Made by a program: the position numbers and the translations under genes. A stretch of 64,000 nucleotides of DNA from Mitsuaria sp. PDC51 (GTDB taxonomy: Bacteria > Pseudomonadota > Gammaproteobacteria > Burkholderiales > Burkholderiaceae_C): positions 2,418,001 to 2,482,000 of the forward strand of contig NZ_FOZE01000001.1 of assembly GCF_900113225.1 (NCBI RefSeq), in the 5' to 3' direction. Below the pieces are notes generated by a model. It was given only the letters and a program-made list of their open reading frames with translations, was not told the DNA's origin and made no database searches. Below are positions 1,179 through 20,145 of the stretch, piece by piece. Position 1 is the stretch's first letter; each line of letters begins with the position of its first letter.

Positions 1179-1196
1179 CTTGGCCGGATTTCGACC

Positions 1197-1991: not shown

Positions 1992-2109
1992 ACCCCGTGG
2001 CCGTCGCCGTTTCCCGGTCGCCAGGCCGACAGGCCTTCGGGCCGTTCCGGCCTTCAAGCCGCCCCTCCGATTTCCTCTCGCCCCTTTCGCCTCTCTCGCA
2101 AGGACTGCC

Positions 2110-2964: not shown

Positions 2965-2988
2965 AGCCCGCCACCTCACCCCGACCCC

Positions 2989-4266: not shown

Positions 4267-4288
4267 GCCGTCGGCTCGGTGTTTTCAC

Positions 4289-4329
4289 CGGTAAGACCGA
4301 AAGTAGATTCTGAGAAACTGGTAAGACCA
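4289..4329. promoter_or_regulatory. Paired FadR/GntR-type operators before the GH2/ABC operon
   Basis: CGGTAAGACCG lies at 4289-4299 and TGGTAAGACCA at 4319-4329. Both match NGGTNNNACCN and the second is a perfect TGGT-N3-ACCA. Their centres are 30 bp apart, the same as in the pairs at 965-1005 and 20105-20145. The gap between fucD and the GH2 gene is 133 bp and relatively AT-rich here, so the operon promoter is probably embedded in or next to the pair. Repression by one of the two local GntR proteins is inferred. Confidence 0.75.
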
Positions 4330-4399
4330 CATCAACGGCCGTCAGAGCCTCGAAGGACCGCCGCCTTTCCGGCGCCGCGGTCCTCGTCATGGAGACAAG

Positions 4400-7270
4400 A
4401 TGTTCAAGACGATGACGCGCCCTGCGTCACTGGTTCATGGGCTGTTGATCGCCTGCCTGGCGATCGCGGCGCTGCTGCCAGCTACCGCGCGCGCCGAGGG
4501 GCCGCGCGAGCGCCTGTCGCTGGACGCCGGCTGGCTGTTCCACCGCGGCGAAGTGCCGCCGCAGCCGGTCAAGGGACACGGCGCGAGCTACCACCAGGCC
4601 AAGGCGGGCGGCGTCGTCGGCGCCGGTGGGGCGGAGTTCGACGACTCCGACTGGCGCCGGCTGGACCTGCCGCACGACTGGGCGATCGAGAACGCCTTCG
4701 ACCGTCAAGAGAACGCGTCGCAGGGCTACCGCGCCCGAGGCATCGGCTGGTACCGGCGCTACCTGCAGCTGCCGGAGTCCGACCGGAGCCGCCACATCGA
4801 ACTGCAGTTCGACGGCATCGCGACCCACAGCACGGTGTGGGTCAACGGCATCGTGGTGAATCGCAACTGGTCCGGCTACAACGGCCGCGCCATCGACATC
4901 ACGCCCTACCTGCGCTACGGCGACGAGGTGAACAGCATCGCGGTGCGCGTCGACGCGGACGCCCAGGAAGGCTGGTGGTACGAAGGCGCCGGCATCTACC
5001 GCCATGTCTGGCTGGTCAAGCGCGACCCGCTGCACATCGCCACCGACGGCCTCTACGCCAATCCCGTGCAGCGCGACGGCCACTGGACGCTGCCGGTCGA
5101 GGTGCAGGTCGACAACACCGGCGAGGCCGCGCGGGCCGCGGTCGTGTCGCTTGAGGTGACCGGCCCCGACGGCGCCGTGGTGGCCCGGAAGGAGACCCGC
5201 GTCAGCGTCGCCGCGCTGGACTCGGCCACCGCGCGCCTGACGCTGGACATCCGGCAACCCGCGCTCTGGTCGCCGCGATCGCCGCGGCTGTATCGCGTGC
5301 GGGCGGTGCTGCGCCAACCCGGCGCCGGGCCGCTGCGCGAGATCGACGCCACCGAGCTGCACACCGGTTTCCGCACGCTGCGCTTCGATGCCGAGCGGGG
5401 CTTCTTCCTCAACGGCGAAGCGCTCAAGCTGCAGGGCGTGTGCATTCACCAGGACCATGCCGGCGTCGGCGTCGCGGTGCCGACGGCGATCTGGGAATTC
5501 CGTCTGCGCCGCCTCCAGGAGATGGGCGTGAACGCGGTGCGCTTCGCCCACAACGCGGTGGCGCCGGAGGTCATGGACCTCGCGGACCGCCTGGGCCTGC
5601 TGGTGATGGACGAGAACCGCAACTTCAGTGCGAGCCCGGACGCGATGGCCCAACTGACCTGGCTGGTGCGGCGCGACCGCAACCGGCCGAGCGTCATCCT
5701 CTGGTCCCTGTTCAACGAAGAGCCGCTGCAAGGCACCTGGCAAGGCCGCGAGATGGCGCGCCGCATGGCCGCCGAGATCAAGCGGCTGGACCCGAGCCGG
5801 CCGGTCACCGCGGGCATGCACGACGGCCTTTTCGCCGATCGCAACGCCTCGGAGGTGCTGGACGTGGTCGGCGTCAACTACCAGGTCCATGCCTACGACC
5901 GCTACCACCGCGAGCATCCGGGCCGGCCGATGTTCAGTTCCGAGGACACCTCCGCCTACATGACGCGCGGCGCCTGGCGCAGCGACCGGCAGGCGCAGGT
6001 GCTGGGCAGCCACGACGACGAGCCCGCGTCCTGGGGCCAGACCCACCGCGACGCCTGGCGGCACCTCGCGCAGCGGCCGTTCATGGCGGGCGGCTTCGTG
6101 TGGAGCGGCTTCGACTACCACGGCGAGCCCACGCCCTTCGAATGGCCGAGCGCCTCGACCTTCTTCGGCGCCCTGGACCTGTGCGGTTTCCCCAAGGCGG
6201 CCTTCTACATCCGGCAGGCGCAATGGGTGAAGGACCGCACCGTGGTCAAAATCCTGCCGCACTGGAACTGGGCCGGCAGCGAGGGCCAGCCGGTGAAGGT
6301 GATGGTCGCCACCAACGCGCCGCGCGTGCGCCTGCTGCTGAACGGCCAGACGGTCGCGGAGCAGGCGGCGGACCGTGACGGCATCGTCAGCGTCGACCTG
6401 CCCTACGCACCGGGCCGGCTCGAGGCCGTCGCGCTGGAGGAAACGCGTGAACTGGCCCGCGACCTGGTGGAGACCAGCGGCGCCCCGGCCCGCCTGGTGC
6501 TTGCCGCCGACCGCGCCACGCTGGCCGGCGACGGCCGCGATGCGGTGGCGGTGACCGTCAGCGCGGTCGATGCGCAGGGTCGCGCGGTGCCGACCGCCAA
6601 CCTGATGGTGCGCTTCGAGACCACCGGCGCCGGCCGCCTGATCGGCGTCGGCAATGGCGACCCCAATTCGCATGAGGCGTCCAAGGCGCCGGAGCGCTCG
6701 CTCTTCAACGGCCTGGCGCAGGCGATCCTCCAGACCGACCGTGACGGCCAGGGACCGCTGCGGCTGCGCGCGACGGCGGACGGGCTGGCGGCCGCCGAGC
6801 TGGTGCTGGACGTGCGCCCCGCGCGGGTCCCGTCGGTGCCGGCCGCGGAGGCGATCAGCCGCGTCGGTGGCTGGCGCATTTCGCCGCCGCAGGCCACGCG
6901 TCCTGATCCCAACCAGGTGCTGGCGGAGAACGACATGAACAGCTGGGGCTGGGGCGAGCCGCCGATCCGGCAGGTGGCGGAGGCCGCGCCCTGGCGCGCC
7001 TACCGCGCCTCGCTGCGCCTGCGCGCCGACCGCAACGACGGCCAGGGCCAGCTGCTGTTCCAGGAGATCGCGGGCCAGGCCGAAGTCTGGGTCGACGGCG
7101 TCAAAATCGGCGAGAAGACCTCGCCGGCGCCCGGCCCCTTGAGCCTGCCGCTGGCCCAGGGACCGGGCTGGCGCACGATGACCGTGCTGGTGCGCGCGCA
7201 GCCGGGCCAGCCCTCGGGCCTCATCGGGCGGGTCACGCTCGAACGCGGCCAGGCGAAGGCGGCGCCATGA
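4400..7270 (+). CDS. Secreted GH2 beta-galactosidase-like enzyme A
   Basis: Glycoside hydrolase family 2 protein of 956 residues with a signal peptide (cleavage near ATARAEG). Domains in order are the jelly-roll sugar-binding domain (RLDLPHDWAIE, GWYRRYLQLP), an immunoglobulin-like domain, the TIM barrel, a DUF4982-like segment (HWNWAGSEGQPVKVMV), a Big-like domain and a C-terminal galactose-binding-like domain from about residue 830. The acid/base is Glu440 in LFNEE. The nucleophile is probably Glu515 in FSSED, where most relatives have a more canonical SE-x-G context. QEGWWYEGAGIYRHVWL is typical of GH2 beta-galactosidases. A ggaga ribosome binding site precedes the ATG. It is the first gene of the operon that continues into the sugar transporter, so it probably releases galactose or related residues from plant side chains. 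The precise linkage is unknown. Confidence 0.88.
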   Translation: MFKTMTRPASLVHGLLIACLAIAALLPATARAEGPRERLSLDAGWLFHRGEVPPQPVKGHGASYHQAKAGGVVGAGGAEFDDSDWRRLDLPHDWAIENAFDRQENASQGYRARGIGWYRRYLQLPESDRSRHIELQFDGIATHSTVWVNGIVVNRNWSGYNGRAIDITPYLRYGDEVNSIAVRVDADAQEGWWYEGAGIYRHVWLVKRDPLHIATDGLYANPVQRDGHWTLPVEVQVDNTGEAARAAVVSLEVTGPDGAVVARKETRVSVAALDSATARLTLDIRQPALWSPRSPRLYRVRAVLRQPGAGPLREIDATELHTGFRTLRFDAERGFFLNGEALKLQGVCIHQDHAGVGVAVPTAIWEFRLRRLQEMGVNAVRFAHNAVAPEVMDLADRLGLLVMDENRNFSASPDAMAQLTWLVRRDRNRPSVILWSLFNEEPLQGTWQGREMARRMAAEIKRLDPSRPVTAGMHDGLFADRNASEVLDVVGVNYQVHAYDRYHREHPGRPMFSSEDTSAYMTRGAWRSDRQAQVLGSHDDEPASWGQTHRDAWRHLAQRPFMAGGFVWSGFDYHGEPTPFEWPSASTFFGALDLCGFPKAAFYIRQAQWVKDRTVVKILPHWNWAGSEGQPVKVMVATNAPRVRLLLNGQTVAEQAADRDGIVSVDLPYAPGRLEAVALEETRELARDLVETSGAPARLVLAADRATLAGDGRDAVAVTVSAVDAQGRAVPTANLMVRFETTGAGRLIGVGNGDPNSHEASKAPERSLFNGLAQAILQTDRDGQGPLRLRATADGLAAAELVLDVRPARVPSVPAAEAISRVGGWRISPPQATRPDPNQVLAENDMNSWGWGEPPIRQVAEAAPWRAYRASLRLRADRNDGQGQLLFQEIAGQAEVWVDGVKIGEKTSPAPGPLSLPLAQGPGWRTMTVLVRAQPGQPSGLIGRVTLERGQAKAAP

Positions 7271-7310
7271 GAGGCGCCGCCCGGCCGCATGCGATGGGAG
7301 GCTTGCGCCG

Positions 7311-8885
7311 ATGAACGCGCTGCCCGACACGTCCACCCTCCCCGCCCTCCCCGCGCTGCTGGGCATGCGCGGCGTGTGCAAGCGTTTCGACAACGTCGTC
7401 GCGCTCGCCGATGTCGCGCTGGAGGTCCATCGCGGCGAGGTCCATGCGATCTGCGGCGAGAACGGCGCCGGCAAGTCCACGCTGATGAAGGTGCTCAGCG
7501 GCGTGCATGCGCCCGACGACGGCGAGCTGCGCATCGATGGCGAGCCGGTGCGCCTGGAAGGCCTCGCGCATGCGCAGCGCCTGGGCATCGTGATGATCCA
7601 CCAGGAGCTGAACCTGGTGCCGCAGCTCACGGTGGCCGAGAACATCTGGCTGGGCCGCGAGCCGCGGCGCGGCTGGTTCGTCGACCGGCAGCGCCAGCGG
7701 GACGGCGCGCGCGCCTGCCTGGCCCGGCTGGGCGCCGACATCGACCCGGACGCCCTGGTCGCGACGCTGCCCATCGCGCAGCGGCAGCTGGTCGAGATCG
7801 CCAAGGCGCTGTCGCTCCAGGCACGGCTGCTGATCATGGACGAGCCGACCTCCTCGCTGGGCGAGGCCGACGCGGCGCGGCTGCTGCAGGTCGTGAGCGA
7901 GCTGCGGCGCGAAGGCGTGGGGATCCTCTACATCTCGCACCGGCTCGATGAACTCGAGCGCATCGCCGACCGCGTCACCGTGCTGCGCGACGGCCGGTAC
8001 ATCGCGACCCGCCACTGGCACGAGACCTCGATCGACGAGATCGTCAGCCTGATGGTGGGCCGCGAGCTGCACCAGCAGTTCCCGCCGGCCACGCGGCAGC
8101 CGGTCGACGAGGTGCTGCTGCGCGTGCGCGGCCTGCGGCGCCACGGCGTCTTCGGGCCGCTGGACTTCGAGCTGCGGCGCGGCGAGATCCTGGGTTTCGC
8201 GGGCCTGGTCGGCGCCGGTCGCACCGAGACCGCCCGCGCGCTCTTCGGGGCCGACCCGCTGGACGGCGGCGAGATCGAGTTCGGCGGACAAGCCCTGGAC
8301 ATCCGCTGCCCGCGCGACGCGATCGACGCCGGCATCGCCTATGTCTCCGAGGACCGCAAGGCCCACGGCCTGGCGGTGGCGATGAGCGTCGCCCACAACA
8401 TCACGATGGCCAACCTGGGCGCGCTGACCCGCGGGCCCGGCCTCATCGACGCGGCGCGCGAGCGGGAGACCGCCGAGCGCTTCATCCGGCAGCTGCAGAT
8501 CCGCACGCCCTCGCCGGACCAGGTCGCGCGGCTGCTGTCCGGCGGCAACCAGCAGAAGGTGGTCATCGCCAAGTGGCTGTTCCGCCAGGCGCGGGTGATC
8601 GTCTTCGACGAGCCCACGCGCGGCATCGATGTCGGCGCGAAATACGCCATCTATGCGCTGATGGACGAGCTGGCGGCCCAGGGCGTCGGCGTTGTGCTCA
8701 TCAGCTCCGACCTGCCCGAGATCTTCGGCCTGACCGACCGCATCGCGGTGTTCCGCCAGGGCCGCATCGCCGGCGTGCTGGACACGCGCGGCAGCAGCCA
8801 GCAGGACGTGATGCACCTGGCCTCGGTCGGCCCGGCTTCCCCATCCCCAGCGCCGGACGCGGCGCCCGAGACGACTGCCCCATGA
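7311..8885 (+). CDS. Sugar ABC transporter ATP-binding protein (RbsA/XylG/MglA type)
   Basis: Double-domain ABC ATPase of 524 residues, the normal length for carbohydrate importers of the CUT2 class. The first nucleotide-binding domain has Walker A GENGAGKST (Lys55), a PIAQRQLVEIAKAL signature region and Walker B LLIMDEPTSSLG. In the second half Walker A is degenerate (LVGAGRTETARALFG), as usual for this class, while signature LSGGNQQKVVIAKWL and Walker B VIVFDEPTRGIDVG are intact. A ggagg lies about 10 nt before the ATG. Its last four bases overlap the permease start (ATGA). Enzymes of L-fucose and L-galactose oxidation follow in the same operon, so the transported sugar is most likely L-fucose and/or L-galactose. 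CUT2 systems cannot be assigned to a sugar from sequence alone. Confidence 0.93.
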   Translation: MNALPDTSTLPALPALLGMRGVCKRFDNVVALADVALEVHRGEVHAICGENGAGKSTLMKVLSGVHAPDDGELRIDGEPVRLEGLAHAQRLGIVMIHQELNLVPQLTVAENIWLGREPRRGWFVDRQRQRDGARACLARLGADIDPDALVATLPIAQRQLVEIAKALSLQARLLIMDEPTSSLGEADAARLLQVVSELRREGVGILYISHRLDELERIADRVTVLRDGRYIATRHWHETSIDEIVSLMVGRELHQQFPPATRQPVDEVLLRVRGLRRHGVFGPLDFELRRGEILGFAGLVGAGRTETARALFGADPLDGGEIEFGGQALDIRCPRDAIDAGIAYVSEDRKAHGLAVAMSVAHNITMANLGALTRGPGLIDAARERETAERFIRQLQIRTPSPDQVARLLSGGNQQKVVIAKWLFRQARVIVFDEPTRGIDVGAKYAIYALMDELAAQGVGVVLISSDLPEIFGLTDRIAVFRQGRIAGVLDTRGSSQQDVMHLASVGPASPSPAPDAAPETTAP

Positions 8886-9865
8886 ACGAACGACAGAAAG
8901 ACCTGCTCCAGAAGTTCGCCGCGCTGGCCGGCCTGCTGGCGCTCGTGCTGGTGTTCTCGCTGACCAGCAACGCCTTCTTCAGCGTGGGCAACGCGATGAC
9001 GGTGTCGCTGCAGGTGAGCACCATCGTCTACCTCGGCCTGGGCGCCACGCTGGTCATCCTGACCGGCGGCATCGACCTGTCGGTGGGTTCGGTGCTGGCC
9101 CTGTCGGGCGTGACGGCCGGGCTGCTGGTCAAGCAGGGCTTGCCGGTGGCGCCCGCGATGGCCGCCGGCATCGTGGTGGGCGGGCTGTGCGGCGCCGTCA
9201 ACGGGCTCTGCGTGACGCGGCTGCGCCTGCCGCCCTTCATCGCGACGCTGGGCATGATGCTGGTGGCGCGCGGCCTGGCGCTGCAGCTGACCGACGCGCG
9301 CGCCGTCTCTGGCCTGGGCGAGGCCTTCGGCGTGCTGGGCAACGGCGCGCTGTGGCGCATCGAGGAGATCGATGCGCAGGGCTTCCCCAACGTGATCTTT
9401 CCCGGCATCCCCTACCCGGTGCTGCTGATGGTGGCGCTGGCGGTGATCGTGGGGCTGCTGCTGCGCCGCACGCTGCTGGGCCGGCACCTGCATGCGGTGG
9501 GCTCCAACGCCGAGGCCGCACGCCTGTCGGGCGTCCACGTGGCGCGCGTGGCGATGTTCGCCTACACCTGCTCCGGCGCACTGGCTGGCCTGTGCGGCTG
9601 CGTGCTGATGTCGCGCCTGGTGACCGCGCAGCCCAACGAGGGCGTGATGTACGAGCTCGACGCCATCGCCGCCGCGGTCATCGGCGGCACCTCGCTGAGC
9701 GGCGGCGTGGGCAGCGTGTCCGGCACCGTCATCGGCGCCTTCGTCATCGGCGTGCTGCGCAACGGCCTGAACATGAACGGCGTGTCGGCGTTCTCGCAGC
9801 AGATCATCATCGGCCTGGTCATCCTCCTCACCGTGTGGATCGACCAGCTCCGCAACCGGCGCTGA
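8882..9865 (+). CDS. Sugar ABC transporter permease (RbsC type)
   Basis: Inner-membrane permease of 327 residues with many hydrophobic segments, for example LAGLLALVLVFSLTSNAFFS near the N-terminus and QQIIIGLVILLTVWID at the end. The family signature region AIAAAVIGGTSLSGGVGSVSGT and the GGIDLSVGSVLALSGV loop are characteristic of RbsC/XylH-type permeases. The ATG at 8882 overlaps the ATPase stop, indicating translational coupling; the open frame upstream of it overlaps the ATPase gene and is not used. It would form the channel with the preceding ATPase and the following binding protein. Confidence 0.93.
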   Translation: MNERQKDLLQKFAALAGLLALVLVFSLTSNAFFSVGNAMTVSLQVSTIVYLGLGATLVILTGGIDLSVGSVLALSGVTAGLLVKQGLPVAPAMAAGIVVGGLCGAVNGLCVTRLRLPPFIATLGMMLVARGLALQLTDARAVSGLGEAFGVLGNGALWRIEEIDAQGFPNVIFPGIPYPVLLMVALAVIVGLLLRRTLLGRHLHAVGSNAEAARLSGVHVARVAMFAYTCSGALAGLCGCVLMSRLVTAQPNEGVMYELDAIAAAVIGGTSLSGGVGSVSGTVIGAFVIGVLRNGLNMNGVSAFSQQIIIGLVILLTVWIDQLRNRR

Positions 9866-9918
9866 AGACCGGCGCAGAACACCGGCGCAAGACCGGCACA
9901 TCCCACCAGGAGACCCGC

Positions 9919-10893
9919 ATGCCCCGCATCCCCTCGTCCCTCGCTCCCTTCACGGTCCGCGCGCTGCGGCGCGCGCTGCTCGGTGCCGGCCTCGCGCTGC
10001 TGGGCGCGAGCGCCCAGGCGGGCGAGATCGCCGTCATCGTCAAGACCACCAACTCCAGCTTCTGGCAGAACGTCAACAAGGGCGCCGACGCGGCGATCAA
10101 GGAGACCACCGGCCACACGCTGACCTTCTCCGGCCCGGCGTCGGAATCGGCGGTCGCCGACCAGGTCAACCTGGTGGAGAACGCGGTCAACCGCCGCGTC
10201 GCGGGCATCGTGCTCGCGCCGTCCGACCCCGATGCGCTGGTGCCGGCCATCAAGCGCGCGTGGGAGGCCCGCATCCCCGTGGTGCTGATCGACTCCCGGG
10301 TGTCCGACGCCGGCAAGACCTACTACCAGTCCTTCCTGTCCACGGACAACATCGCGGCGGGCGAGCTCTGCGCCAAGGCGCTGATCGCGCGCGTCGGCAC
10401 CACCGGCAAGGTGGCGCTCATGTCCTACGTGGCCGGCGCGGGCTCGGAGGCGGACCGTGTCGGCGGCTTCAAGCGCTACCTGCAGGCCCACTCGAAGCTG
10501 GAGATCGTCGGCCCGTACTACTCGCAGTCGCAGATGGCCACCGCGATGAACCAGACCACCGACGTGCTGGCGGCCCATCGCGACCTCAAGGCCCTGTTCG
10601 GCGCGAACGAGCCGACCGCGGTCGGCATGGGCCGCGCGCTGGTGCAGAGCGGTCGCGCCGGCCAGGTGGTGGCCATCGGTTTCGACGGCAACCAGGACCT
10701 GCAGAAGTTCGTCCAGGACGGCACGCTGGAGGGCATCGCGGTGCAGAGCTCGTTCCGCATGGGCTACCTGGGCGTCAAGACCGTGGACGAGTTGCTGCAG
10801 CGCAAGCCGGTGCCCAAGTTCCGCGACACCGGCGTGGTCTGGGTCAACAAGACCAACCTGCAATCGCCCGAGGCCCGGGCGGTCCTCTACTGA
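9919..10893 (+). CDS. Periplasmic sugar-binding protein (RbsB type)
   Basis: Periplasmic binding protein of 324 residues in the LacI/RbsB-like fold (Peripla_BP_4). The signal peptide ends around GASAQAGE. The mature start EIAVIVKTTNSSFWQNVNKG, AGIVLAPSDPDALVPAI, STDNIAAGELCAKAL and AIGFDGNQDLQKFVQDG are family hallmarks; the Asp and Asn residues in the last two segments probably contact sugar hydroxyls. The ATG at 9919 follows an accaggaga ribosome binding site. It lies 53 bp after the permease gene, and its stop overlaps the next start (TGATG). The gene order ATPase-permease-binding protein inside the catabolic operon suggests the ligand is L-fucose, L-galactose or both. Confidence 0.92.
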   Translation: MPRIPSSLAPFTVRALRRALLGAGLALLGASAQAGEIAVIVKTTNSSFWQNVNKGADAAIKETTGHTLTFSGPASESAVADQVNLVENAVNRRVAGIVLAPSDPDALVPAIKRAWEARIPVVLIDSRVSDAGKTYYQSFLSTDNIAAGELCAKALIARVGTTGKVALMSYVAGAGSEADRVGGFKRYLQAHSKLEIVGPYYSQSQMATAMNQTTDVLAAHRDLKALFGANEPTAVGMGRALVQSGRAGQVVAIGFDGNQDLQKFVQDGTLEGIAVQSSFRMGYLGVKTVDELLQRKPVPKFRDTGVVWVNKTNLQSPEARAVLY

Positions 10894-11966
10894 TGAGCGT
10901 CGTGCCTTCGTCCCTGGCGCCCCCGCCCCTCGCCGACCGCGCGGCCGCCGTCATGCCCGCACCGGACCGTCCCTTGCGCCAGGCCCTGCGCGCGTGTCCG
11001 CTGGGCCTGGGCGCCGCCGCGCTGGCGGGGCTCTACGACGCGGTCGACGAGGCCACGGCCGCCGCAACGCTGCAGGCCGCCTGGGACGCCGGCCTGCGCT
11101 GCATCGACACCGCGCCGTTCTACGGCTACACGCGCAGCGAGCACCGCGTCGGCGCCTTCCTGGCCGGACGGCCGCGCGACGGGCTGGTGCTCTCGACCAA
11201 GGTGGGGCGCCTGCTGCGGCCCGACGCGAGCGTGCAGCCCGGCAGCGACGGCTGGGCCGATCCGCTGCCCTTCCGCCCCGTCTTCGACTACAGCTACGAC
11301 GGCGTGATGCGCTCGTTCGAGGACAGCCTGGCGCGCCTGGGCGGCGCGCGCATCGACCTGCTGCTGGTGCATGACATCGGCCGCGCCACCCACGGCCAGC
11401 AGCACGGGCGCCACTGGCGCGCGCTCACCCAGGGCCGGGGCTTTCGCGCGCTCGAGTCGCTGCGCGACCAGGGCGCGGTGCAGGCCATCGGGCTGGGGGT
11501 GAATGAATGGGAGGTGGCCTGGGATGCGCTGTCGGCCGCGCCGATCGACTGCGTGCTGCTGGCCGGCCGCTACACGCTGCTGGAACAGGGGGCGCTCGGT
11601 TTCATGGACCGCTGCGTGGCGGACGGCGTGGACGTCCTCATTGGCGGGCCGTTCAACTCCGGGCTGCTGGCGGGCCAGGCCAGGTACGACTACGGCGCCG
11701 TGCCGGCGGCGGTGCGCGAGCGCGCCGAGGCGCTGGCCGCCGTCTGCGCCGAATTCGAGGTGCCCCTGCCGGCGGCCGCGCTGCAGTTCCCGCTGGCCCA
11801 TCCGGCGGTGGCGAACGTGCTGTCGGGCATGCGTTCGCCGGACCAGGTGCGGCGCAACGTCGACTGGATGCGGCAGCCGATTCCCGGCGCGCTGTGGCAC
11901 GCCTTGCGCGATCGCGGCCTGATCCATGCCGGCGTGCCGCTGCCGGACGAACCGGGGGCGGGCTGA
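10893..11966 (+). CDS. Aldo/keto reductase, L-fucose (D-threo-aldose) 1-dehydrogenase
   Basis: Aldo/keto reductase of 357 residues. The (beta/alpha)8 features are LGLGAAALAGLY, GLRCIDTAPFYGYTRSE (Asp and Tyr of the catalytic tetrad), STKVGRLLRP (Lys) and LLLVHDIGRATHG (His). This subgroup includes pyridine-nucleotide-dependent enzymes that oxidise L-fucose, L-galactose and D-arabinose at C1 to the lactone, so one enzyme could serve both sugars. Translation starts at the ATG of a TGATG overlap with the binding-protein gene, and a lactonase gene follows at once. A second in-frame ATG about 20 codons in is possible, since the first 28 residues are not conserved-looking. Dehydrogenase direction is inferred from the lactonase next door. 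Confidence 0.85.
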   Translation: MSVVPSSLAPPPLADRAAAVMPAPDRPLRQALRACPLGLGAAALAGLYDAVDEATAAATLQAAWDAGLRCIDTAPFYGYTRSEHRVGAFLAGRPRDGLVLSTKVGRLLRPDASVQPGSDGWADPLPFRPVFDYSYDGVMRSFEDSLARLGGARIDLLLVHDIGRATHGQQHGRHWRALTQGRGFRALESLRDQGAVQAIGLGVNEWEVAWDALSAAPIDCVLLAGRYTLLEQGALGFMDRCVADGVDVLIGGPFNSGLLAGQARYDYGAVPAAVRERAEALAAVCAEFEVPLPAAALQFPLAHPAVANVLSGMRSPDQVRRNVDWMRQPIPGALWHALRDRGLIHAGVPLPDEPGAG

Positions 11967-11967
11967 C

Positions 11968-12813
11968 ATGCGGGTCGATGCCCACCAGCATTTCTGGCGC
12001 CTCGCCGACCGCGAGGGGCAATGGCCGCCGCCGTCGCTGGCGGCCATCCACCGGGACTTCGGCCCGGAGGACCTCGAGCCGCAACTGCGCGCCTGCGGCA
12101 TCGACGCGACGGTGCTGGTGCAGTCGCTGCCCAGCGTCGAGGACACGCGCTGGATGCTGTCCGTCGCGGCGCGGACGCCCTGGGTGCGCGGCGTGGTCGG
12201 CTGGGTCGACTTCAAGGCGACCGACGCCGCGGCGCAGATCGACGAGCTGGCGCGCGACCCCGCGCTCAGGGGCCTGCGACCGATGCTGCAGGACCTGCCG
12301 CGGGACGACTGGATCGACGATCCGGCCTGCGCGCCCGCGGCCGCCGCGATGCAGCGGCACGACCTGGTCTTCGACGCGCTGGTGCTGCCGCGCCAGCTTC
12401 CCGCGCTGGGCCGCTTCGCCCGGCGCCATCCCGGCCTGCGCCTGGTCGTCGACCATGCCGCCAAGCCCTTCATCGCGCGCGGCGAGCTCGAGCCCTGGCG
12501 CACCGACCTCGCCGCGCTGGCCGCCCTGCCCCAGGTCCACTGCAAGGTCTCCGGCCTGCTGACCGAGGCGGGAGACCGCCTCCATGACGCGGCGCTGCGG
12601 CCCTACATGCAGGCGCTGTGGGAGCTCTTCGGTCCGCGCCGGCTGCTGTGGGGCAGCGACTGGCCCGTGCTGCGCCTGGCCGCGGACTACGCGCCCTGGT
12701 GGCACCAGGCGCAGCGCCTGGCCAGCCAGCTCCACCCCGCACCGGCCGCCGCCGACCTGGATGCCCTGTTTGGCGGCAATGCCGCCGCCCTCTACCGCCT
12801 CACGCCATGCTGA
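11968..12813 (+). CDS. L-fuconolactone hydrolase (amidohydrolase family 2)
   Basis: Amidohydrolase-superfamily protein of 281 residues (COG3618 type). It begins MRVDAHQHFWRLADREGQW, giving the H-x-H metal motif of the lactonase group. It ends with LLWGSDWPVLRLAADYAPW, which carries the last metal-binding Asp. VVDHAAKPFI and HCKVSGLLTE add the remaining His and the Lys/His loop. Enzymes of this group open L-fucono-1,5-lactone to L-fuconate, and related ones open L-galactono- and L-rhamnono-lactones. The ATG at 11968 lies one base after the preceding stop codon, and its own stop is nested in the next start (ATGCTGA), so translation is tightly coupled to both neighbours. Placement right after the aldose dehydrogenase supports the role. 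Confidence 0.87.
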   Translation: MRVDAHQHFWRLADREGQWPPPSLAAIHRDFGPEDLEPQLRACGIDATVLVQSLPSVEDTRWMLSVAARTPWVRGVVGWVDFKATDAAAQIDELARDPALRGLRPMLQDLPRDDWIDDPACAPAAAAMQRHDLVFDALVLPRQLPALGRFARRHPGLRLVVDHAAKPFIARGELEPWRTDLAALAALPQVHCKVSGLLTEAGDRLHDAALRPYMQALWELFGPRRLLWGSDWPVLRLAADYAPWWHQAQRLASQLHPAPAAADLDALFGGNAAALYRLTPC

Positions 12814-13817
12814 CCGTCCTCTGCGAATCCCCGGGCACCCTTGCCGTCCACCATCGTCCCAAGCCGCAACGCCAGACCGGCGAGGTGCTGCTGCGCGTCC
12901 GCCGCGTGGGCGTGTGCGGGACCGACCTCCACATCTTCACCGGCCACCAGCCCTACCTCGCCTACCCGCGGGTCATGGGGCATGAACTGTCCGGCGTGGT
13001 CGAGGAGGCGGATCCCGACAGCGGCCTGCAGCCCGGCGACACCGTGTATGCGATGCCCTACCTGTCCTGCGGCCGCTGCCGGGCCTGCCGCCAGGGCAAG
13101 TCCAACTGCTGCGTGCAGATGCAGGTGCTGGGCGTGCATCGCGACGGCGCCTTCACCGAGTACCTCTGCCTGCCCCGCCGCTTCGTCGGCAAGGCGGACG
13201 GCCTCACGCTGGACCAGGCCGCGATGGTGGAGTTCCTGGCCGTCGGGGCGCACGCGGTGCGTCGCGGCGAGGTCGGCGCCGGACAGCGCGTGCTGGTGGT
13301 GGGCGCCGGTCCGATCGGGCTGGGCGCGATGCTGTTCGCCGCCCTGCGCGGCGCCACCGTGGTGGCGCTGGACAGCCGGCGGGACCGGCTCGAGGTCGCG
13401 CGCGCCCACGCCGGCATCGCGGCCGCGGTGCCGCTGGGCGACGGCGACGAGGCCGAACTCGCGCGGCTGACCGACGGCGAGTTCTTCGACGTGGTGTTCG
13501 ACGCCAGCGGCAATCCGCAGGCGATGGAGCGCGGCTTCCGTTTCATCGCGCATGGCGGCCGCTACGTGCTGCTGTCCATCGTGCAGGGCGACATCCGCTT
13601 CTCCGATCCGGAGTTCCACAAGCGCGAGGCCACGCTGCTCAGCAGCCGCAACGCCACGATGGAGGACTTCGACACCGTGATCGCCGCGATGCGCGCGGGC
13701 CAGGTGCCGCATGCCGCGCTGGCGACGCATCGCCTGGCGCTGGGCGACCTGCCGGCGCGCTTCCCCGACCTGCTCGATCCCGGGCAAGGCGTGATCAAGG
13801 CGCTGGTCGAATGCTGA
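12807..13817 (+). CDS. lgoD: L-galactonate 5-dehydrogenase, LgoD type (zinc alcohol dehydrogenase)
   Basis: Medium-chain zinc dehydrogenase of 336 residues. Catalytic zinc ligands lie in VGVCGTDLH and MGHELSGVVEE. Structural-zinc cysteines lie in SCGRCRACRQGKSNCC. The nucleotide-binding motif is VVGAGPIGLGAM. The stretches FSDPEFHK and SRNAT match what I remember of Escherichia coli YjjN/LgoD, which oxidises L-galactonate to D-tagaturonate. The following two genes, UxaB-like and UxaA, would carry tagaturonate on to altronate and then 2-keto-3-deoxy-D-gluconate, which strongly supports this role. It would not be needed for L-fucose, whose acid lacks the C6 hydroxyl. The ATG overlaps the lactonase stop by seven bases. 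Other polyol dehydrogenase activities cannot be excluded from sequence. Confidence 0.82.
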   Translation: MLTVLCESPGTLAVHHRPKPQRQTGEVLLRVRRVGVCGTDLHIFTGHQPYLAYPRVMGHELSGVVEEADPDSGLQPGDTVYAMPYLSCGRCRACRQGKSNCCVQMQVLGVHRDGAFTEYLCLPRRFVGKADGLTLDQAAMVEFLAVGAHAVRRGEVGAGQRVLVVGAGPIGLGAMLFAALRGATVVALDSRRDRLEVARAHAGIAAAVPLGDGDEAELARLTDGEFFDVVFDASGNPQAMERGFRFIAHGGRYVLLSIVQGDIRFSDPEFHKREATLLSSRNATMEDFDTVIAAMRAGQVPHAALATHRLALGDLPARFPDLLDPGQGVIKALVEC

Positions 13818-14956
13818 GCCCTGGCCTGGACGGTGCGCCGCCGATCCTTCAATTCGGCACCGGGCGCTTCCTGCAGGCCCATGTGGACCTGCTCGTCAGC
13901 GAGGCGGCGGAGACCGGCGACGCGCTGGGCGGCATCACCGTGGTGCAGAGCACCGACCATCCGGCCAGCACCCGCCGCGCGCGGGAACTGGCCCGCGCGC
14001 AGGGGTTTCCCGTCGTGCTGCGCGGTCTGGTCGGCGGCGTGCCGGTGGAGATGCAGCGCACCTGCCGCTCGGTGCGCGAGGTCCTGCATGCCGCCGCCGA
14101 CTGGCCCGCGGTGCGCGAGCGCGTGCGCGGACCGGTGCGAGTGATCGTGTCCAACACCGGCGACGAGGGCTGGGCGCTGTCGCTGCGCGACGGCCCGGCG
14201 CTGCTGGCCGACGCGGCGCCCGCGCCCGAGGCCTTCCCGGCCCGGCTGCTGGTGCTGCTGCACGACCGCTGGCAGGCGGCCCCGGACGCCGGGCTGACGC
14301 TGCTGCCCTGCGAGCTGGTCTCGCGCAACGGCGCCGTCCTGGGCGACCTGGTGGTGGCCCTGGCGCGGTCCTGGCACTGCCCGCCGGCCTTCATCGACTG
14401 GCTGCTCGGCCACGTCGTCTGGGCCAGCTCGCTGGTCGACCGCATCGTGGCCCAGGCGCTGGAGCCGGTCGGCGCGGTGGCCGAGCCCTATGCGCTGTGG
14501 GCCGTGCAGGCCCAGCCGGGCCTGCAGCTGCCGTGCCGGCACCCGGCGCTCATCGTGACCGAGGACCTCGCGCGCCATGAACGACTCAAGCTCTTCCTGC
14601 TGAACCTGGGCCACACGATGCTGGCGGAGCTCTGGCGCGTCCTCGACCGGGCGCCGGACATGACGGTGCGGCAGGCCATGGAAGACCCCGCGCTGCGCCA
14701 GCCGCTCGAGGACACCTGGCAGGAGGAGGTGCTGCCGGTGCTGGCGGCGCTCGGGCAAGGCGAGGAGGCGCTCGTCTACCTGGACGGCTTGCGCGACCGC
14801 TTGCTGAACCCCTTCCTCGAGCACCGGCTCGCCGACATCGCGCAGCACCACGCGAGCAAGAAGGCCCGCCGCCTGCTGCCGGTGGTCGAGCTGGCGCGGC
14901 GGCATGTGCCGGCGCTGTCCCAGTCGCGGCTGCGGACCGCCCTCAGGACCTCGTGA
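13811..14956 (+). CDS. uxaB: Tagaturonate reductase / altronate oxidoreductase, UxaB-like, short form
   Basis: Mannitol-dehydrogenase-family protein of 381 residues. N-terminal ILQFGTGRFLQAHVD is the nucleotide-binding signature. IVSNTGDEGW, LLPCELVSRNG, SSLVDRIV and the catalytic-helix stretch KLFLLNLGHTMLAE follow the UxaB pattern, which has Asn in place of the second half of the polyol-specific motif. The protein is about 100 residues shorter than enterobacterial UxaB (about 483 residues as I recall) and ends soon after LLPVVELARRHVPAL, so the C-terminal part of domain 2 is reduced. It would reduce D-tagaturonate, the LgoD product, to D-altronate. The start overlaps the lgoD stop as ATGCTGA. 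Fructuronate reductase (UxuB) activity is the main alternative. Confidence 0.82.
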   Translation: MLSPGLDGAPPILQFGTGRFLQAHVDLLVSEAAETGDALGGITVVQSTDHPASTRRARELARAQGFPVVLRGLVGGVPVEMQRTCRSVREVLHAAADWPAVRERVRGPVRVIVSNTGDEGWALSLRDGPALLADAAPAPEAFPARLLVLLHDRWQAAPDAGLTLLPCELVSRNGAVLGDLVVALARSWHCPPAFIDWLLGHVVWASSLVDRIVAQALEPVGAVAEPYALWAVQAQPGLQLPCRHPALIVTEDLARHERLKLFLLNLGHTMLAELWRVLDRAPDMTVRQAMEDPALRQPLEDTWQEEVLPVLAALGQGEEALVYLDGLRDRLLNPFLEHRLADIAQHHASKKARRLLPVVELARRHVPALSQSRLRTALRTS

Positions 14957-14970
14957 TCAAGGAGCAGGAC

Positions 14971-15300
14971 ATGGAACGCATGGGCATGGTGATCGGCATC
15001 GCGCCGGAGCACATCGCCGAATACAAGCGCCTGCACGCGGCCGTCTGGCCGGCGGTGCTGGCCCGGCTGGCGGCGTCGAACGTGCGCAACTACAGCATCT
15101 TCCTGCGCGAGCCGGAGCACCTGCTGTTCGGCTACTGGGAGTACCACGGCAGCGACTACGCGGCCGACATGGCCGCGATCGCCGCCGATCCCGAGACGCA
15201 GCGCTGGTGGACCTTCTGCGGGCCCTGCCAGCGGCCGCTGGACAGCCGGGCCGAGGGCGAGCACTGGGCCGCGATGGAGCAGGTGTTCCATGTCGACTGA
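14971..15300 (+). CDS. L-fucose/L-rhamnose mutarotase, RhaM family
   Basis: Small RhaM-family mutarotase of 109 residues. Hallmarks are EYKRLHAAVWPAVLARLAA, NYSIFLREPEHLLFGYWEY (with the catalytic Tyr/His positions) and the C-terminal WTFCGPCQ. It interconverts alpha and beta pyranose anomers so that the aldose dehydrogenase receives the right form. In L-fucose clusters a RhaM-type protein often replaces FucU. The ATG at 14971 follows an aaggag at 14959-14964 and gives the normal family length. An upstream GTG at 14953 would overlap the uxaB stop but is less likely. Its end overlaps the uxaA start by 11 bases. Confidence 0.88.
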   Translation: MERMGMVIGIAPEHIAEYKRLHAAVWPAVLARLAASNVRNYSIFLREPEHLLFGYWEYHGSDYAADMAAIAADPETQRWWTFCGPCQRPLDSRAEGEHWAAMEQVFHVD

Positions 15301-16867
15301 ATCACCGGGCGAAGGCGCCGCCGCGGATCCGGGGCCCCTGCCGGCCTCGGCGCTGATCGTCCTGCATCCGGACGACAACATCGCGGTCGCGCGGTTCGCG
15401 CTGCCCGCCGGCGCACGCATCGCCGGCCTCCAAGGGGGCACGCTGCCAGTGCTGGCGCCGATCGAGGCCGGGCACAAGGTCGCGCTGCGCGCGATCGGGC
15501 GCGGCGAGCTGGTGCTCAAGTACGGCCAGCCCATCGGCCTGGCCAGCGCGCCGATCGAGCCCGGCGCCCACGTGCATGGGCACAACCTCGAGATGGCCGA
15601 GGTGATGCCGCCGCGAGCGGCGGCGCAGGCCGCGGACGCCGCGGCTGCCGTGATGCCCGTCGACTCGGCGGCGACCTTCGAGGGCTACCGGCGCGCGGAT
15701 GGCCGCGTCGGCACCCGCAACTACATCGGCGTCATCGCGTCGGTGAACTGCTCCGCGACCGTCTGCAAGGCGATCGCGCAGGTCTTCCAGGGGCCGGGCC
15801 TGCCGGCGGGCGTGGACGGCGTGGTGGCCATCACCCACGGCAGCGGCTGCGGCATGAGCGCGGAGGGCGACGGCCTGGTGCTGCTGCAGCGGACGCTGCG
15901 CGGTTATGCGGCGCATCCCAACTTCGCCGCCGTGCTGCTGGTCGGCCTGGGCTGCGAGGTCAACCAGATCGAGCCGCTCGTCCAGGCGCTGCCGGCGGCC
16001 ACCCGCGAACGCCTGCGCCTGCTGACCATCCAGGAGGCCGGCGGCACCCGGGAAGCCGTCGAGCAAGGCCAGGCGCTGGTGCGCGAGCTCGCCGAGCAGG
16101 CGGGGCTGGCGCGCCGCAGCACGGTGCCGATGTCGGCGCTGGTGGTGGGGCTGCAGTGCGGCGGGTCGGATGGTTACTCGGGCATCAGCGCCAATCCCGC
16201 GCTGGGCGCCGCGGTCGACCTGCTGGTGCGCCATGGCGGCACCGCCCTGCTGTCGGAGACGCCGGAGATCCATGGCGCCGAACACCTGCTGACCGCGCGG
16301 GCCGCGTCGCCCGAGGTCGCCCGGCGACTGCTGGACCGCCTGCAGTGGTGGGAGCAGTACGCGGCGCGCCATGGCGCGCGGCTGGACAACAACCCCTCGC
16401 CCGGCAACAAGGCGGGCGGCATCACCACCATCCTGGAGAAGTCGCTGGGCGCGGTCGCCAAGGGCGGCGGCAGCCCGCTGAACGACGTGATCGAGTACGC
16501 CGAGCCGGTCCGCGCGCGCGGGCTGGTCTTCATGGACACGCCGGGCTACGACCCGGTGTCGGCGACGGGTCAGGTCGCGGGCGGCGCCACGCTGATCTGC
16601 TTCACGACCGGCCGCGGCTCGACCTACGGCTGCAAGCCGACGCCCTCGCTGAAGCTGGCCACGACCACCGCGCTGTTCGAACGCATGCGCCTGGACATGG
16701 ACTTCAATGCCGGCGGCATCGTCGACGGCACGCAGACCGTGGCCGAGGCTGGCGCGGCGCTCTTCGAGCTGATGCGCGAAACCGCCTCGGGCCGCCGCAC
16801 GCTCAGCGAGGAACACGGCCTGGGCGACAACGAGTTCGTGCCCTGGCAGCTCGGGGCGGTGATGTGA
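15290..16867 (+). CDS. uxaA: Altronate dehydratase (UxaA family)
   Basis: UxaA-family dehydratase of 525 residues. An N-terminal SAF domain (ALIVLHPDDNIAVARFALP, ending in HVHGHNLEM) is joined to the large C-terminal dehydratase domain. Conserved segments are GRVGTRNYIGVIASVNCSAT, HGSGCGMS, LQCGGSDGYSGISANPALG, DNNPSPGNKAGGITTILEKS and TTGRGSTYGCKPTPSLKLAT; the cysteines fit an iron-dependent enzyme. It converts D-altronate to 2-keto-3-deoxy-D-gluconate, completing the L-galactonate branch; relatives acting on D-galactarate exist but lack this context. It is the last gene of the long operon starting at 4400 and converges on a GntR gene after only 10 bp. No KDG kinase or KDPG aldolase gene is in the window. 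Confidence 0.9.
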   Translation: MSTESPGEGAAADPGPLPASALIVLHPDDNIAVARFALPAGARIAGLQGGTLPVLAPIEAGHKVALRAIGRGELVLKYGQPIGLASAPIEPGAHVHGHNLEMAEVMPPRAAAQAADAAAAVMPVDSAATFEGYRRADGRVGTRNYIGVIASVNCSATVCKAIAQVFQGPGLPAGVDGVVAITHGSGCGMSAEGDGLVLLQRTLRGYAAHPNFAAVLLVGLGCEVNQIEPLVQALPAATRERLRLLTIQEAGGTREAVEQGQALVRELAEQAGLARRSTVPMSALVVGLQCGGSDGYSGISANPALGAAVDLLVRHGGTALLSETPEIHGAEHLLTARAASPEVARRLLDRLQWWEQYAARHGARLDNNPSPGNKAGGITTILEKSLGAVAKGGGSPLNDVIEYAEPVRARGLVFMDTPGYDPVSATGQVAGGATLICFTTGRGSTYGCKPTPSLKLATTTALFERMRLDMDFNAGGIVDGTQTVAEAGAALFELMRETASGRRTLSEEHGLGDNEFVPWQLGAVM

Positions 16868-16877: not shown

Positions 16878-17606
16878 TCAGAGCATCAGGGCGCCGCGCG
16901 ACGGGATCTCCGCGGCATCGCCGGTCCAGCGCGCATGCGAGGCGATCAGGTGACGGCAGATCGCCGCCGACGCGGCCTGCGGGTCGCGGGCCTCCAGCGC
17001 CTGGTAGATGGCCTCGTGCTCGGCCAGCGCGTCCTTCCAGGTGTCGTTCGACTCGATCTGGCCGCTCATGTGCAACGACAGCGGGCTGTGGCGGCCATCG
17101 AAGAGCGATCCGACCATGTCGACGAGGACCGAATTGCCGCTCATCTCCGCGATGCTCAGGTGGAAGCGGCGGTCGGCCTCCACCGGCTTGAGCCCGCTGG
17201 CCAGTTCGGCGCGCATCGCGTCCAGGGCTTCCTGCACGCGTTGCAGTCCCGCCTTGGTGACGCGGGCCGCGGCCAGCGTGATCACGGCGCTCTCCAGCAC
17301 CAGCCGCGCATGCATCAGCTCCGCCGGGCTGTCGCCCAGGGACGGCGTCCCGTTGTCCTCCAGCGGGTGGACGCTGGTCACATAGACGCCGGAGCCGCCG
17401 CGGATCTCGATCCGGCCTTCGATCTCCAGCGCGATCAGCGCCTCGCGCAGCGAGGGTCGCGACACCCCCAGCTGCAGCGCCAGTTCCCGCTCCGCCGGCA
17501 GGCGCGCCCCGGCGGAAAAGCCGCCGGTCTCGATGAGGGACCGGATGCGGTCGGCAACCAACTGGTATTGCCGGCGGGTCTCGCCGCCGCGGTGTGGCAT
17601 GGCCAT
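16878..17606 (-). CDS. GntR-family regulator, FadR subfamily (paralogue 1)
   Basis: Transcription factor of 242 residues. The N-terminal winged helix is YQLVADRIRSLIETGGF...LPAERELALQLGVSRPS with the wing GGSGVYV. It is followed by an all-helical FCD ligand domain with DRRFHLSIAEMSGN and a late HEAIYQALEARD...HLIASH stretch whose Asp/His residues normally bind metal and an acid-sugar ligand. I chose the ATG at 17606 because it aligns with the start of the paralogue at 19321-20019 and leaves the operator at 17628-17638 outside the coding region. A longer frame to 17654 would place that operator inside the gene. Autoregulation and control of the neighbouring GH51 and fucose/galactose genes are likely. 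The effector is probably an aldonate or keto-deoxy acid, which is inference. Confidence 0.92.
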   Translation of the reverse strand: MAMPHRGGETRRQYQLVADRIRSLIETGGFSAGARLPAERELALQLGVSRPSLREALIALEIEGRIEIRGGSGVYVTSVHPLEDNGTPSLGDSPAELMHARLVLESAVITLAAARVTKAGLQRVQEALDAMRAELASGLKPVEADRRFHLSIAEMSGNSVLVDMVGSLFDGRHSPLSLHMSGQIESNDTWKDALAEHEAIYQALEARDPQAASAAICRHLIASHARWTGDAAEIPSRGALML

Positions 17607-17627
17607 GCTCTTCCCAACGCTCTCAAG

Positions 17628-17638
17628 TGGACTGACCA
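17628..17638. promoter_or_regulatory. Single FadR/GntR-type operator between GntR-1 and GH51 genes
   Basis: TGGACTGACCA is identical to the site at 965-975 and differs from TGGT-N3-ACCA by one base. It lies 21 bp upstream of the regulator ATG and 78 bp upstream of the arabinofuranosidase ATG in a divergent intergenic region. Unlike the other promoters it has no partner 30 bp away. Confidence 0.62.
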
Positions 17639-17716
17639 ATGGTAGCGCTCTCAAGCGGCCTCCCGATTCGGCGGCTCTCCAAGAACCCAGGCGTCAAGCG
17701 CCATGAGAAGAGACAG

Positions 17717-19320: not shown

Positions 19321-20019
19321 TCAGTCGGACACGCCGACCCAGCGGTCATGGGCCGCGAACAGGTGACGGCACATCGCCGCCGAGGCCGCCTGCGGATCGC
19401 GCGACTCGAGCGCGCGCAGGATGGCCTCGTGCTCGTCCAGCGCGTCCCGCCACGGCGGGGTCACCGACTCGATGCGGCCGCTCATGCGGGTGGAGATCGC
19501 GCCGTGGCGCCCGTCGAACAGGGTTCCCACCACGCCGGCCAGGACCAGATTGCCGCTCATCTCGGCGATGCTCACGTGAAAGCGCCGATCCGCCTCGACC
19601 GGCTTGCGCCCCGCGGCGACATCGGCCCGCATCGCCTCGAGCGCGTCGCGGACGCGATCCAGCGAGGCCTTGTCGACCCGCGCCGCCGCCAGCGTGACCA
19701 CCGCGCTTTCCACCACCACCCGCGCGTGCATCAGCTCCGCGGGGCTTTCCCCGAGTGTCGGCGTCGCGCCGAGCTCCTCCGGCGCGGCGCAGACATAGAC
19801 GCCGGAGCCGCCCCGGATCTCGATCCGGCCCTCGATCTCGAGCGCGATCAGCGCCTCGCGCAAGGAAGGACGCGACACGCCGAGCTGCTGGGCGAGCTCG
19901 CGTTCCCCCGGCAGCCTCGCGCCGGCGAGGTAGGCCCCATCGCGGATCAGCACGCGGACCCGGTCGGCCACGACCTGGTATTGCCGGCGGACCTCGCCGC
20001 CGTACGGATGTTGTGCCAT
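19321..20019 (-). CDS. GntR-family regulator, FadR subfamily (paralogue 2)
   Basis: Transcription factor of 232 residues, a clear paralogue of the regulator at 16878-17606. The winged helix YQVVADRVRVLIRDGAYLAG...LPGERELAQQLGVSRPS and the wing GGSGVYVCA are nearly the same, and the FCD domain repeats DRRFHVSIAEMSGN. The recognition helix QLGVSRPSLREALIALEIEG is identical in both proteins, so both should read the same TGGT-N3-ACCA operators. The ligand domains differ more, especially around the Ala-rich segment after the wing, which suggests different effectors. It is divergent from the halogenase/GH2/GH3 operon, with a pair of operators in between. Which of the two regulators controls which promoter cannot be decided from sequence. 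Confidence 0.92.
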   Translation of the reverse strand: MAQHPYGGEVRRQYQVVADRVRVLIRDGAYLAGARLPGERELAQQLGVSRPSLREALIALEIEGRIEIRGGSGVYVCAAPEELGATPTLGESPAELMHARVVVESAVVTLAAARVDKASLDRVRDALEAMRADVAAGRKPVEADRRFHVSIAEMSGNLVLAGVVGTLFDGRHGAISTRMSGRIESVTPPWRDALDEHEAILRALESRDPQAASAAMCRHLFAAHDRWVGVSD

Positions 20020-20104: not shown

Positions 20105-20145
20105 CGGTCTGACCAACAAAACATCATGGCAAAGTGGTAATACCA
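20105..20145. promoter_or_regulatory. Paired FadR/GntR-type operators before the halogenase/GH2/GH3 operon
   Basis: CGGTCTGACCA lies at 20105-20115 and a perfect TGGTAATACCA at 20135-20145, again with 30 bp between centres. The stretch is noticeably AT-rich against its surroundings, as expected of a promoter. It lies 85 bp upstream of GntR-2 and 90 bp upstream of the halogenase-like gene, so both divergent units may be controlled. Confidence 0.75.

Follow-up and report, generated by a model that had tools for sequence, protein, structure and literature searches.

A run of same-strand genes in the genome of Mitsuaria sp. PDC51 probably forms a single coregulated unit for the catabolism of sugars with the L-fuco and L-galacto configurations, judging by its sequence. 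The run occupies positions 1197 to 16867 of a 64,000-nucleotide stretch (i.e., the window; contig NZ_FOZE01000001.1, positions 2,418,001 to 2,482,000). In order, the gene calls gave a short-chain dehydrogenase/reductase (SDR), an FAH-family hydrolase, the L-fuconate dehydratase FucD, a glycoside hydrolase (GH) of family GH2, three CUT2 sugar transporter genes, an aldo/keto reductase (AKR), a lactonase, LgoD-like and UxaB-like dehydrogenases, a RhaM-family mutarotase, and UxaA (Table 1). From position 7311 onward, neighboring genes overlap or lie no more than 15 bases apart, except for 53 bases between the permease and the binding protein. Upstream of this position, the gaps are about 118 (SDR-FAH), 24 (FAH-FucD), 133 (FucD-GH2), and 40 (GH2-CUT2) bases. 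The original prediction had placed the transporter, AKR, lactonase, mutarotase, and LgoD, UxaB, and UxaA homologues in the compact part of the run, with which the gene calls and Pfam matches agree. It had also placed FucD, the SDR, and the FAH hydrolase in the neighboring unit (1197 to 4266), and the gene calls bear this out, on the same strand.

From these data we infer the substrates, the sharing of the AKR and lactonase by both branches, cotranscription, and binding by the regulator. The CUT2 transporter would import the sugar, and RhaM may interconvert its anomers. The AKR would then oxidize L-fucose or L-galactose, both rare plant sugars, to the lactone, which the amidohydrolase would convert to L-fuconate or L-galactonate. 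FucD, the SDR, and the FAH hydrolase would break L-fuconate down to pyruvate and L-lactate (Route III of L-fucose breakdown). L-Galactonate would undergo C5 epimerization, with LgoD producing D-tagaturonate and UxaB producing D-altronate; UxaA would dehydrate the latter to 2-keto-3-deoxy-D-gluconate (KDG), and a KDG kinase encoded elsewhere would complete the route. The run holds one AKR and one lactonase, apparently common to both branches. The FCD-type regulator encoded beside the run probably binds sites resembling TGGTCNGACCA.

Sequence comparison yielded a homologue for each pathway step, from FucD, the SDR, the FAH hydrolase, the lactonase, and the AKR to LgoD, UxaB, and UxaA. The parts of Route III, matched by homology only, were FucD, an SDR of the L-2-keto-3-deoxyfuconate (L-KDF) dehydrogenase type, and an FAH-family diketo hydrolase. 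For the route from L-galactose to D-altronate and its dehydration, an AKR, a cog3618 lactonase, LgoD, UxaB, and UxaA were all matched by homology, all below the NCBIfam cutoffs. A Pfam family scored above its gathering threshold for 10 of 10 submitted proteins. Against named NCBIfam models, the FAH protein scored 429 bits (NF053535, 2,4-didehydro-3-deoxy-L-rhamnonate hydrolase; cutoff, 500), the lactonase 218 bits (L-fucono-1,5-lactonase; cutoff, 400), and the UxaB-like protein 200 bits (tagaturonate reductase; cutoff, 359). A closer solved relative of FucD, 4ip4, carries no functional name. The structure matched by the lactonase (4dlf), which we take to be an L-fucono-1,5-lactonase, was deposited as Amidohydrolase 2. 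The LgoD-like protein was 32% identical to RspB over a 305-residue part. The window UxaA was 35% identical to Escherichia coli UxaA and 37% identical to a 406-residue part of GarD, values that do not settle its subtype. The UxaB-like protein has 381 residues versus 483 in E. coli, with about 110 C-terminal residues missing; the UxaB-like proteins of three relatives (L025, L026, and L027) were about equally short.

UxaC (PF02614) had no match in the genome, compared with matches in 7 of 14 control genomes. UxaB and UxaA are thus not fed by hexuronate isomerization, and tagaturonate should come from L-galactonate; galacturonate was ruled out as its source. Fucose isomerase (FucI; PF02952), matched in 3 of 14 controls, was likewise absent from the genome, which rules out L-fucose use through the isomerase, i.e., the phosphorylating pathway. 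A single AKR of this kind is encoded in the genome, the next match having an E value of 1e-9. The SDR of Burkholderia L-fucose operons, presumably an L-fucose dehydrogenase on the basis of operon context, has no close relative there (best, 35%). Taken with the lack of FucI, these results leave the AKR as the only first-step candidate for either branch among the dehydrogenase kinds searched for. A KdgK homologue (45% identical to that of E. coli) was located at C6:747071, and no KDPG aldolase was matched in the 20 kb around it, the stretch to which that search was confined. Five GH29 matches and three matches to PF14498 (GH95-type; two of them pieces of one frame) make the release of both sugars from polymers possible; GH95 includes alpha-L-galactosidases. 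The second UxaA/GarD domain was matched at three loci in the genome: the window's, a GarD locus on contig C2, and C6:443764. One UxaA-family gene, at C6:443764-444192 (L109), lies near an HpaI-type aldolase gene (above its NCBIfam cutoff) and an aldehyde dehydrogenase gene.

Relatives were sampled in two ways. A search of 100 genomes, counting the window's own, gave some LgoD match at an E value of 1e-20 in 44, and four besides the window's own had a close orthologue (67 to 96% identity). A scan of named genomes retained the best 80 of 562 relatives, a set that does not include Acidovorax avenae. The 80 named loci and the 4 relatives gave 84 loci, all of which hold LgoD by construction; the window was not counted. 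We defined the galactonate back end as UxaB at ≥45% identity or any UxaA, and the fucose back end as FucD, or the SDR plus the FAH hydrolase. Both back ends were found in 13 loci, LgoD with the fucose back end only in 2, the galactonate back end with the AKR in 18, the galactonate back end with no front end found in 34, and LgoD with the AKR and lactonase in 1. All 15 loci with fucose back-end genes had exactly one type of first-step dehydrogenase. In 11 this was the AKR; the other 4, from Rhizobacter sp. Root1221 and Ralstonia (three loci), had an SDR, and no locus had both or neither. Both back ends were complete (i.e., UxaB at ≥45%, UxaA, FucD, SDR, and FAH all found) in 5 of the 15, namely, relative G011 (AKR), Rhizobacter, and the three Ralstonia loci (SDR). 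The argument for sharing rests on these few complete loci and on two unrelated dehydrogenases occupying the same slot. Eight Rhizobiales loci carried the AKR, lactonase, LgoD, and FucD in one run, with RhaM and the SDR between LgoD and FucD in six; the SDR was also undetected in two (L096 and L100). Lone LgoD orthologues (71 to 73% identical) occurred mostly in Caballeronia (L033, L036, L038 to L040, L044 to L046, L048, L049, L051, L053, L055, L057, and L060); the identified neighbors of the one at L036 are not sugar genes.

The comparison of gene order proposed with the original prediction came out in its favor. The same-genus relative G010 keeps the ten genes from the SDR to LgoD in the same order, at 89 to 97% identity; its contig ends at LgoD, leaving UxaB, RhaM, and UxaA beyond view. 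G011 keeps the run without GH2 and without a detected RhaM. In G045, the transporter-to-UxaA part is kept, with the L-fucose unit on another contig, and of this set G037 has only LgoD, UxaB, UxaA, and the regulator. About 14 kb separate the AKR operon of R. caseinilyticus from its same-strand L-fucose unit, which lies upstream and was out of the tally's range. The AKR operon of R. cellulosilyticus has next to it an SDR gene whose product is 77% identical to the window SDR, and the FAH and FucD genes are on another contig. In the Rhizobacter locus, one run comprises the two back ends, the SDR-type dehydrogenase, and a kinase. The gene arrangement is not due to chance. In the Ralstonia loci (L061, L068, and L071), one FCD regulator is flanked by the L-fucose operon on one strand and LgoD-UxaB-UxaA on the other, and each locus has just one SDR-type dehydrogenase and one lactonase. 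In AKR and lactonase trees, the window grouped with Roseateles operons; the anchor rows were long-branched, so these trees cannot tell L-fucose from L-galactose specificity.

Operator-like palindromes were also found around the run. The pattern TGGTCNGACCA was spotted by eye at window positions 950 to 1200, with the FadR-type consensus in mind, and was then tested on relatives. Since it was chosen after the window had been seen, the window count is no independent test, whereas the relatives provide one. Allowing one mismatch, the 64-kb window held 6 matches versus 1.79 ± 1.34 in shuffles. Five of the six are intergenic, and the match at 17628 would be as well if the regulator and GH51 genes start further in, as their translations suggest. 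No palindrome was found before the transporter at 7311 in the window. In relatives, the 9-base core with one mismatch occurred in 27 of 38 regulator-divergent regions, compared with a mean of 7.1 and a maximum of 13 in 200 random draws. Across 83 of the 84 loci (L027 left out), 54 of 99 full-pattern matches fell in upstream zones, which make up 66,946 of 1,646,843 bases (4.1%). G010 has palindromes upstream of the SDR (L028) and between FucD and GH2 (L028 9619). Palindromes precede both units in some relatives, and one also stands upstream of Roseateles-type L-fucose units that do not adjoin the operon (L146, L149, and L150). The P. mimosarum and Burkholderia L-fucose loci that were examined (L132, L147, and L148) had no palindrome. 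In a count of common palindromes, nothing stood out, and a promoter and terminator scan was uninformative (0 promoter-like sites; 3 terminator-like sites versus 3.1 expected).

Elsewhere in the Mitsuaria genome, at G000:C6 ~2307200-2315400 (L159 9263-17360), a BNR-repeat protein, two GH29 alpha-L-fucosidases, and a GH42 enzyme are encoded in one run. Four operator-like palindromes stand at its head, three upstream of the first gene and one inside its called start. This run possibly belongs to the same regulon.

Several observations weigh against a single unit shared by both sugars. None of the ten proteins scanned reached an NCBIfam curated cutoff, so the proteins are named by homology and not by equivalog models; the best-named models nevertheless agreed for several of the ten, all below cutoff. 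Six palindrome matches were reached in 2 of 100 shuffles. Exact TGGTCNGACCA occurred 4 times genome-wide, compared with 11 for a reversed-pattern control, and never in the window; being unenriched, it gives no conserved exact site in this strain. The exact 9-base core was present in 0 of 38 regulator-divergent regions, and G011, with the same gene run, had no palindrome match upstream. LgoD stood without a front or back end in 16 of the 84 loci, 15 of which had no other match to the set, and 10 of the 15 two-branch loci were incomplete. The eight Rhizobiales loci had no FAH and no UxaB at ≥45% (at best, a 25 to 29% UxaB-like gene), with UxaA on the other strand, and UxaB, UxaA, and the lactonase were undetected in the Aureimonas locus (L085). 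A second UxaA relative in the genome, at L109, is 52% identical to the window UxaA. A first-step dehydrogenase of another kind may be encoded elsewhere in the genome. Besides an AKR-LgoD operon (L082), Burkholderia G108 has a distinct L-fucose operon (L147) equipped with a dehydrogenase, lactonase, and transporter of its own, and the three AKRs of P. mimosarum lie in as many clusters. Matched by context and not by locus tag, the latter correspond to the published L-fucose and D-arabinose clusters (PMC6336799; this and the other PMC papers marked with a dagger [†] are cited from excerpts†) plus one LgoD cluster. Because of these separate operons, the LgoD-linked AKR may serve L-galactose alone in G108 and P. 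mimosarum, and the action of the window AKR on L-fucose is not assured. One front end for both sugars is at most a lineage trait, and in the window we infer it.

The most direct alternative is that the two halves are independent, with the AKR, lactonase, and transporter serving L-galactose only and SDR-FAH-FucD relying on another aldose dehydrogenase or on imported L-fuconate. The placement of FucD and the AKR operon on different contigs in G045 and R. cellulosilyticus fits this view, as do the self-contained Burkholderia L-fucose operon (L147, with its own dehydrogenase and lactonase) and the grouping of the window AKR with AKRs of LgoD-linked operons. We nevertheless consider independence unlikely. 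A search for first-step enzymes of two kinds found no second one in the genome, SDR-FAH-FucD and the AKR operon form one run in the window's genome, G010, and G011, and palindromes precede both units in some relatives. In addition, the R. cellulosilyticus SDR adjoins the AKR operon even though FAH-FucD lies elsewhere, and a related AKR has been published as accepting D-arabinose, L-fucose, and L-galactose (PMC6336799†). That substrate range, described for a P. mimosarum AKR of this family, also lends something to the idea that the main sugar is D-arabinose, whose relevant carbons are configured alike, and that L-fucose and L-galactose are side substrates. The third P. mimosarum AKR gene (L133) adjoins that of a dehydratase to which the window UxaA is 60% identical, but this AKR shows the lowest similarity of the three (47% versus 59% for the LgoD-linked AKR). 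The assigned reactions of LgoD and UxaB are at hexonate C5, and neither enzyme has an evident role in D-arabinonate breakdown; D-arabinose as the main sugar is improbable. An ordinary hexuronate (galacturonate) isomerase pathway, in which UxaB and UxaA would adjoin the L-fucose genes by accident, is hardly credible. The window does hold a GH28 polygalacturonase-type gene, but the genome lacks UxaC, and LgoD, UxaB, and UxaA are linked in many genera. Moreover, a GarD above its cutoff is encoded on contig C2, where its neighbors are a galactonate-type transporter and a ketoglutarate-semialdehyde-type dehydrogenase, as would fit oxidative use of uronates.

A further question is whether the branches are separate after the aldonate. 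FucD or UxaA could dehydrate L-galactonate to L-2-keto-3-deoxygalactonate (L-KDGal), which would then pass through the SDR and FAH hydrolase, or the SDR could oxidize KDG, giving pyruvate and glycerate. The FucD of X. campestris is said to accept L-galactonate. The characterized L-KDF dehydrogenase (L-KDFDH) of H. huttiense has kcat/Km values of 1480 for L-KDGal, 75 for D-KDG, and 7900 min-1 mM-1 for L-KDF (PMC11199699†, Table 1), and a UxaA-family dehydratase acts on D-altronate, L-fuconate, and L-galactonate at 12, 5.6, and 2.4% of its D-arabinonate activity (PMC6336799†). Conversely, D-KDG is a 105-fold worse substrate than L-KDF (PMC11199699†), LgoD is kept even though FucD is present in 12 of the 14 LgoD-bearing genomes tested (the window's included), and a PfkB kinase gene lies ≤50 bases from LgoD or UxaA in 14 of the 84 loci. 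We regard such a lack of separation as rather unlikely. These data bear on the scheme of the original prediction, in which both sugars share the first steps and then part. Its general outline is supported by the gene content, the lack of UxaC and FucI, synteny, and the common palindromes; its split after the aldonate may not be clean, because the characterized L-KDF dehydrogenase accepts L-KDGal, D-2-keto-3-deoxypentonate (D-KDP), and, weakly, D-KDG (PMC11199699†). A broader version of the coregulated unit is possible, although we hold it only tentatively. In it, L-fucose, L-galactose, and D-arabinose would be one substrate class of a single FCD-controlled regulon, with an interchangeable front end (the AKR or an unrelated SDR), a hexonate side branch for L-galactonate, partial reconvergence on the SDR and FAH hydrolase, and a reach extending to the run with two GH29 genes and GH42.

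Comparable systems are known. A paper on Acidovorax avenae reportedly names both pathways. In this species, L-galactonate is reportedly C5-epimerized by two dehydrogenases to D-altronate, which a UxaA-family enzyme dehydrates, in a pathway overlapping Route III for L-fucose. The L-galactose pathway of Bacteroides vulgatus is said to comprise a lactonase and a hexuronate-type follow-up, and we know of no L-fucose branch in it. Its L-galactose and L-galactonate dehydrogenases are BVU_0219 and BVU_0222, respectively (Hobbs 2014, cited in PMC12632266†). The lguABCDEF system of Luteolibacter, for L-glucose and L-galactose, resembles the present one in its conversion of L-galactose to KDG, its enzymes in the UxaB and UxaA roles, and its KDG phosphorylation; it differs in that its second sugar is L-glucose and in that its LguA was inactive on L-fucose (PMC12632266†). 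Route III likewise combines L-fuconate dehydratase, an SDR L-KDFDH, and an FAH hydrolase to yield pyruvate and L-lactate (PMC11199699†, PMC6336799†), whereas in the window the dehydrogenase and lactonase are apparently held in common with L-galactose. In Halomonas and Chromohalobacter, L-fucose/L-fuconate genes are colocalized with lgoD, uxaA, and uxaB (or uxaF), which the authors ascribed to common pathways and likely coregulation (PMC5507952†). Those loci have a TRAP transporter for sugar acids (PMC5507952†), whereas a CUT2 sugar transporter, an AKR, and a lactonase lead in here, and L-galactose is not named in the main text of that paper (PMC5507952). The original prediction had been aware of no description of the combined arrangement as a pathway; the published L-fucose/L-galactonate loci mean that it has already been described (PMC5507952†). 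A literature search among open-license papers found none on this particular operon.

Beyond the run and its flanking regulators (Table 1), window positions 20199 to 43681 hold a tryptophan-halogenase-like gene (named from its sequence), followed by two GH2 genes, GH3, GH28, a chemoreceptor, a binding protein, and a large sensor kinase. Positions 46905 to 55083 encode a large two-partner-secretion exoprotein with DUF5649 and MBG repeats, adjoining a ShlB-type transporter.

Table 1. Features of the gene run and its flanks (window positions)
Feature	Positions	Strand	Evidence or remark
Three operator-like palindromes (965, 1093, 1168)	965..1178		Upstream of SDR gene; TGGTCNGACCA, one mismatch each
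SDR, predicted L-2-keto-3-deoxyfuconate 4-dehydrogenase	1197..1991	+	PDB matches 2ag5 (SDR family member 6, human BDH2) and H. huttiense L-KDFDH 8y11/8y46
FAH-family hydrolase, predicted L-2,4-diketo-3-deoxyfuconate hydrolase	2110..2964	+	PDB 8gsr, L-2,4-diketo-3-deoxyrhamnonate hydrolase, E 5e-93
FucD, putative L-fuconate dehydratase (enolase superfamily)	2989..4266	+	Near full-length match to 2hne/1yey, E ~1e-166
Operator-like palindrome	4319..4329		Upstream of GH2; one-mismatch match
GH2 glycoside hydrolase	4400..7270	+	Within gene run; Pfam GH2 domains
CUT2 sugar ABC transporter ATPase	7311..8885	+	Named from sequence and synteny
CUT2 permease	8882..9865	+	Named from sequence and synteny
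CUT2 periplasmic sugar-binding protein	9919..10893	+	Named from sequence and synteny
AKR, predicted L-galactose/L-fucose 1-dehydrogenase	10893..11966	+	Best PDB matches L-galactose dehydrogenases; 7lh6, E 7e-26
cog3618 amidohydrolase, predicted L-fucono/L-galactono-lactonase	11968..12813	+	PDB 4dlf, E 1e-44
LgoD-like zinc dehydrogenase, predicted L-galactonate 5-dehydrogenase	12807..13817	+	39% identity to E. coli LgoD
Short UxaB-like dehydrogenase, predicted tagaturonate reductase	13811..14956	+	31% to E. coli UxaB residues 10-373 of 483
RhaM-family mutarotase	14971..15300	+	Between UxaB and UxaA; Pfam PF05336, 109.5 bits
UxaA/GarD-family dehydratase, predicted D-altronate dehydratase	15290..16867	+	Pfam GD_AH domains
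GntR/FCD regulator, likely regulator of gene run	16878..17654	-	Pfam; relatives flank operon in many loci; true start probably further in
Operator-like palindrome	17628..17638		At start of regulator and GH51; one-mismatch match
GH51-type arabinofuranosidase	17639..19249	+	Named from sequence
Second GntR/FCD-type regulator, similar to first	19321..20019	-	Named from sequence
Operator-like palindrome	20105..20115		Between second regulator and next gene; one-mismatch match

The pathway idea is already in print, and this operon is a further example of a described arrangement. The points of some interest that remain are the sharing of the AKR and lactonase by both sugars and the separation of the branches after the aldonate. 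The run is a well-defined candidate for L-galactose use in Burkholderiales rich in plant-polymer hydrolases, and it comes with relatives for comparison and a candidate operator. Whether L-fucose and L-galactose share their first-step enzymes thereby becomes directly testable.

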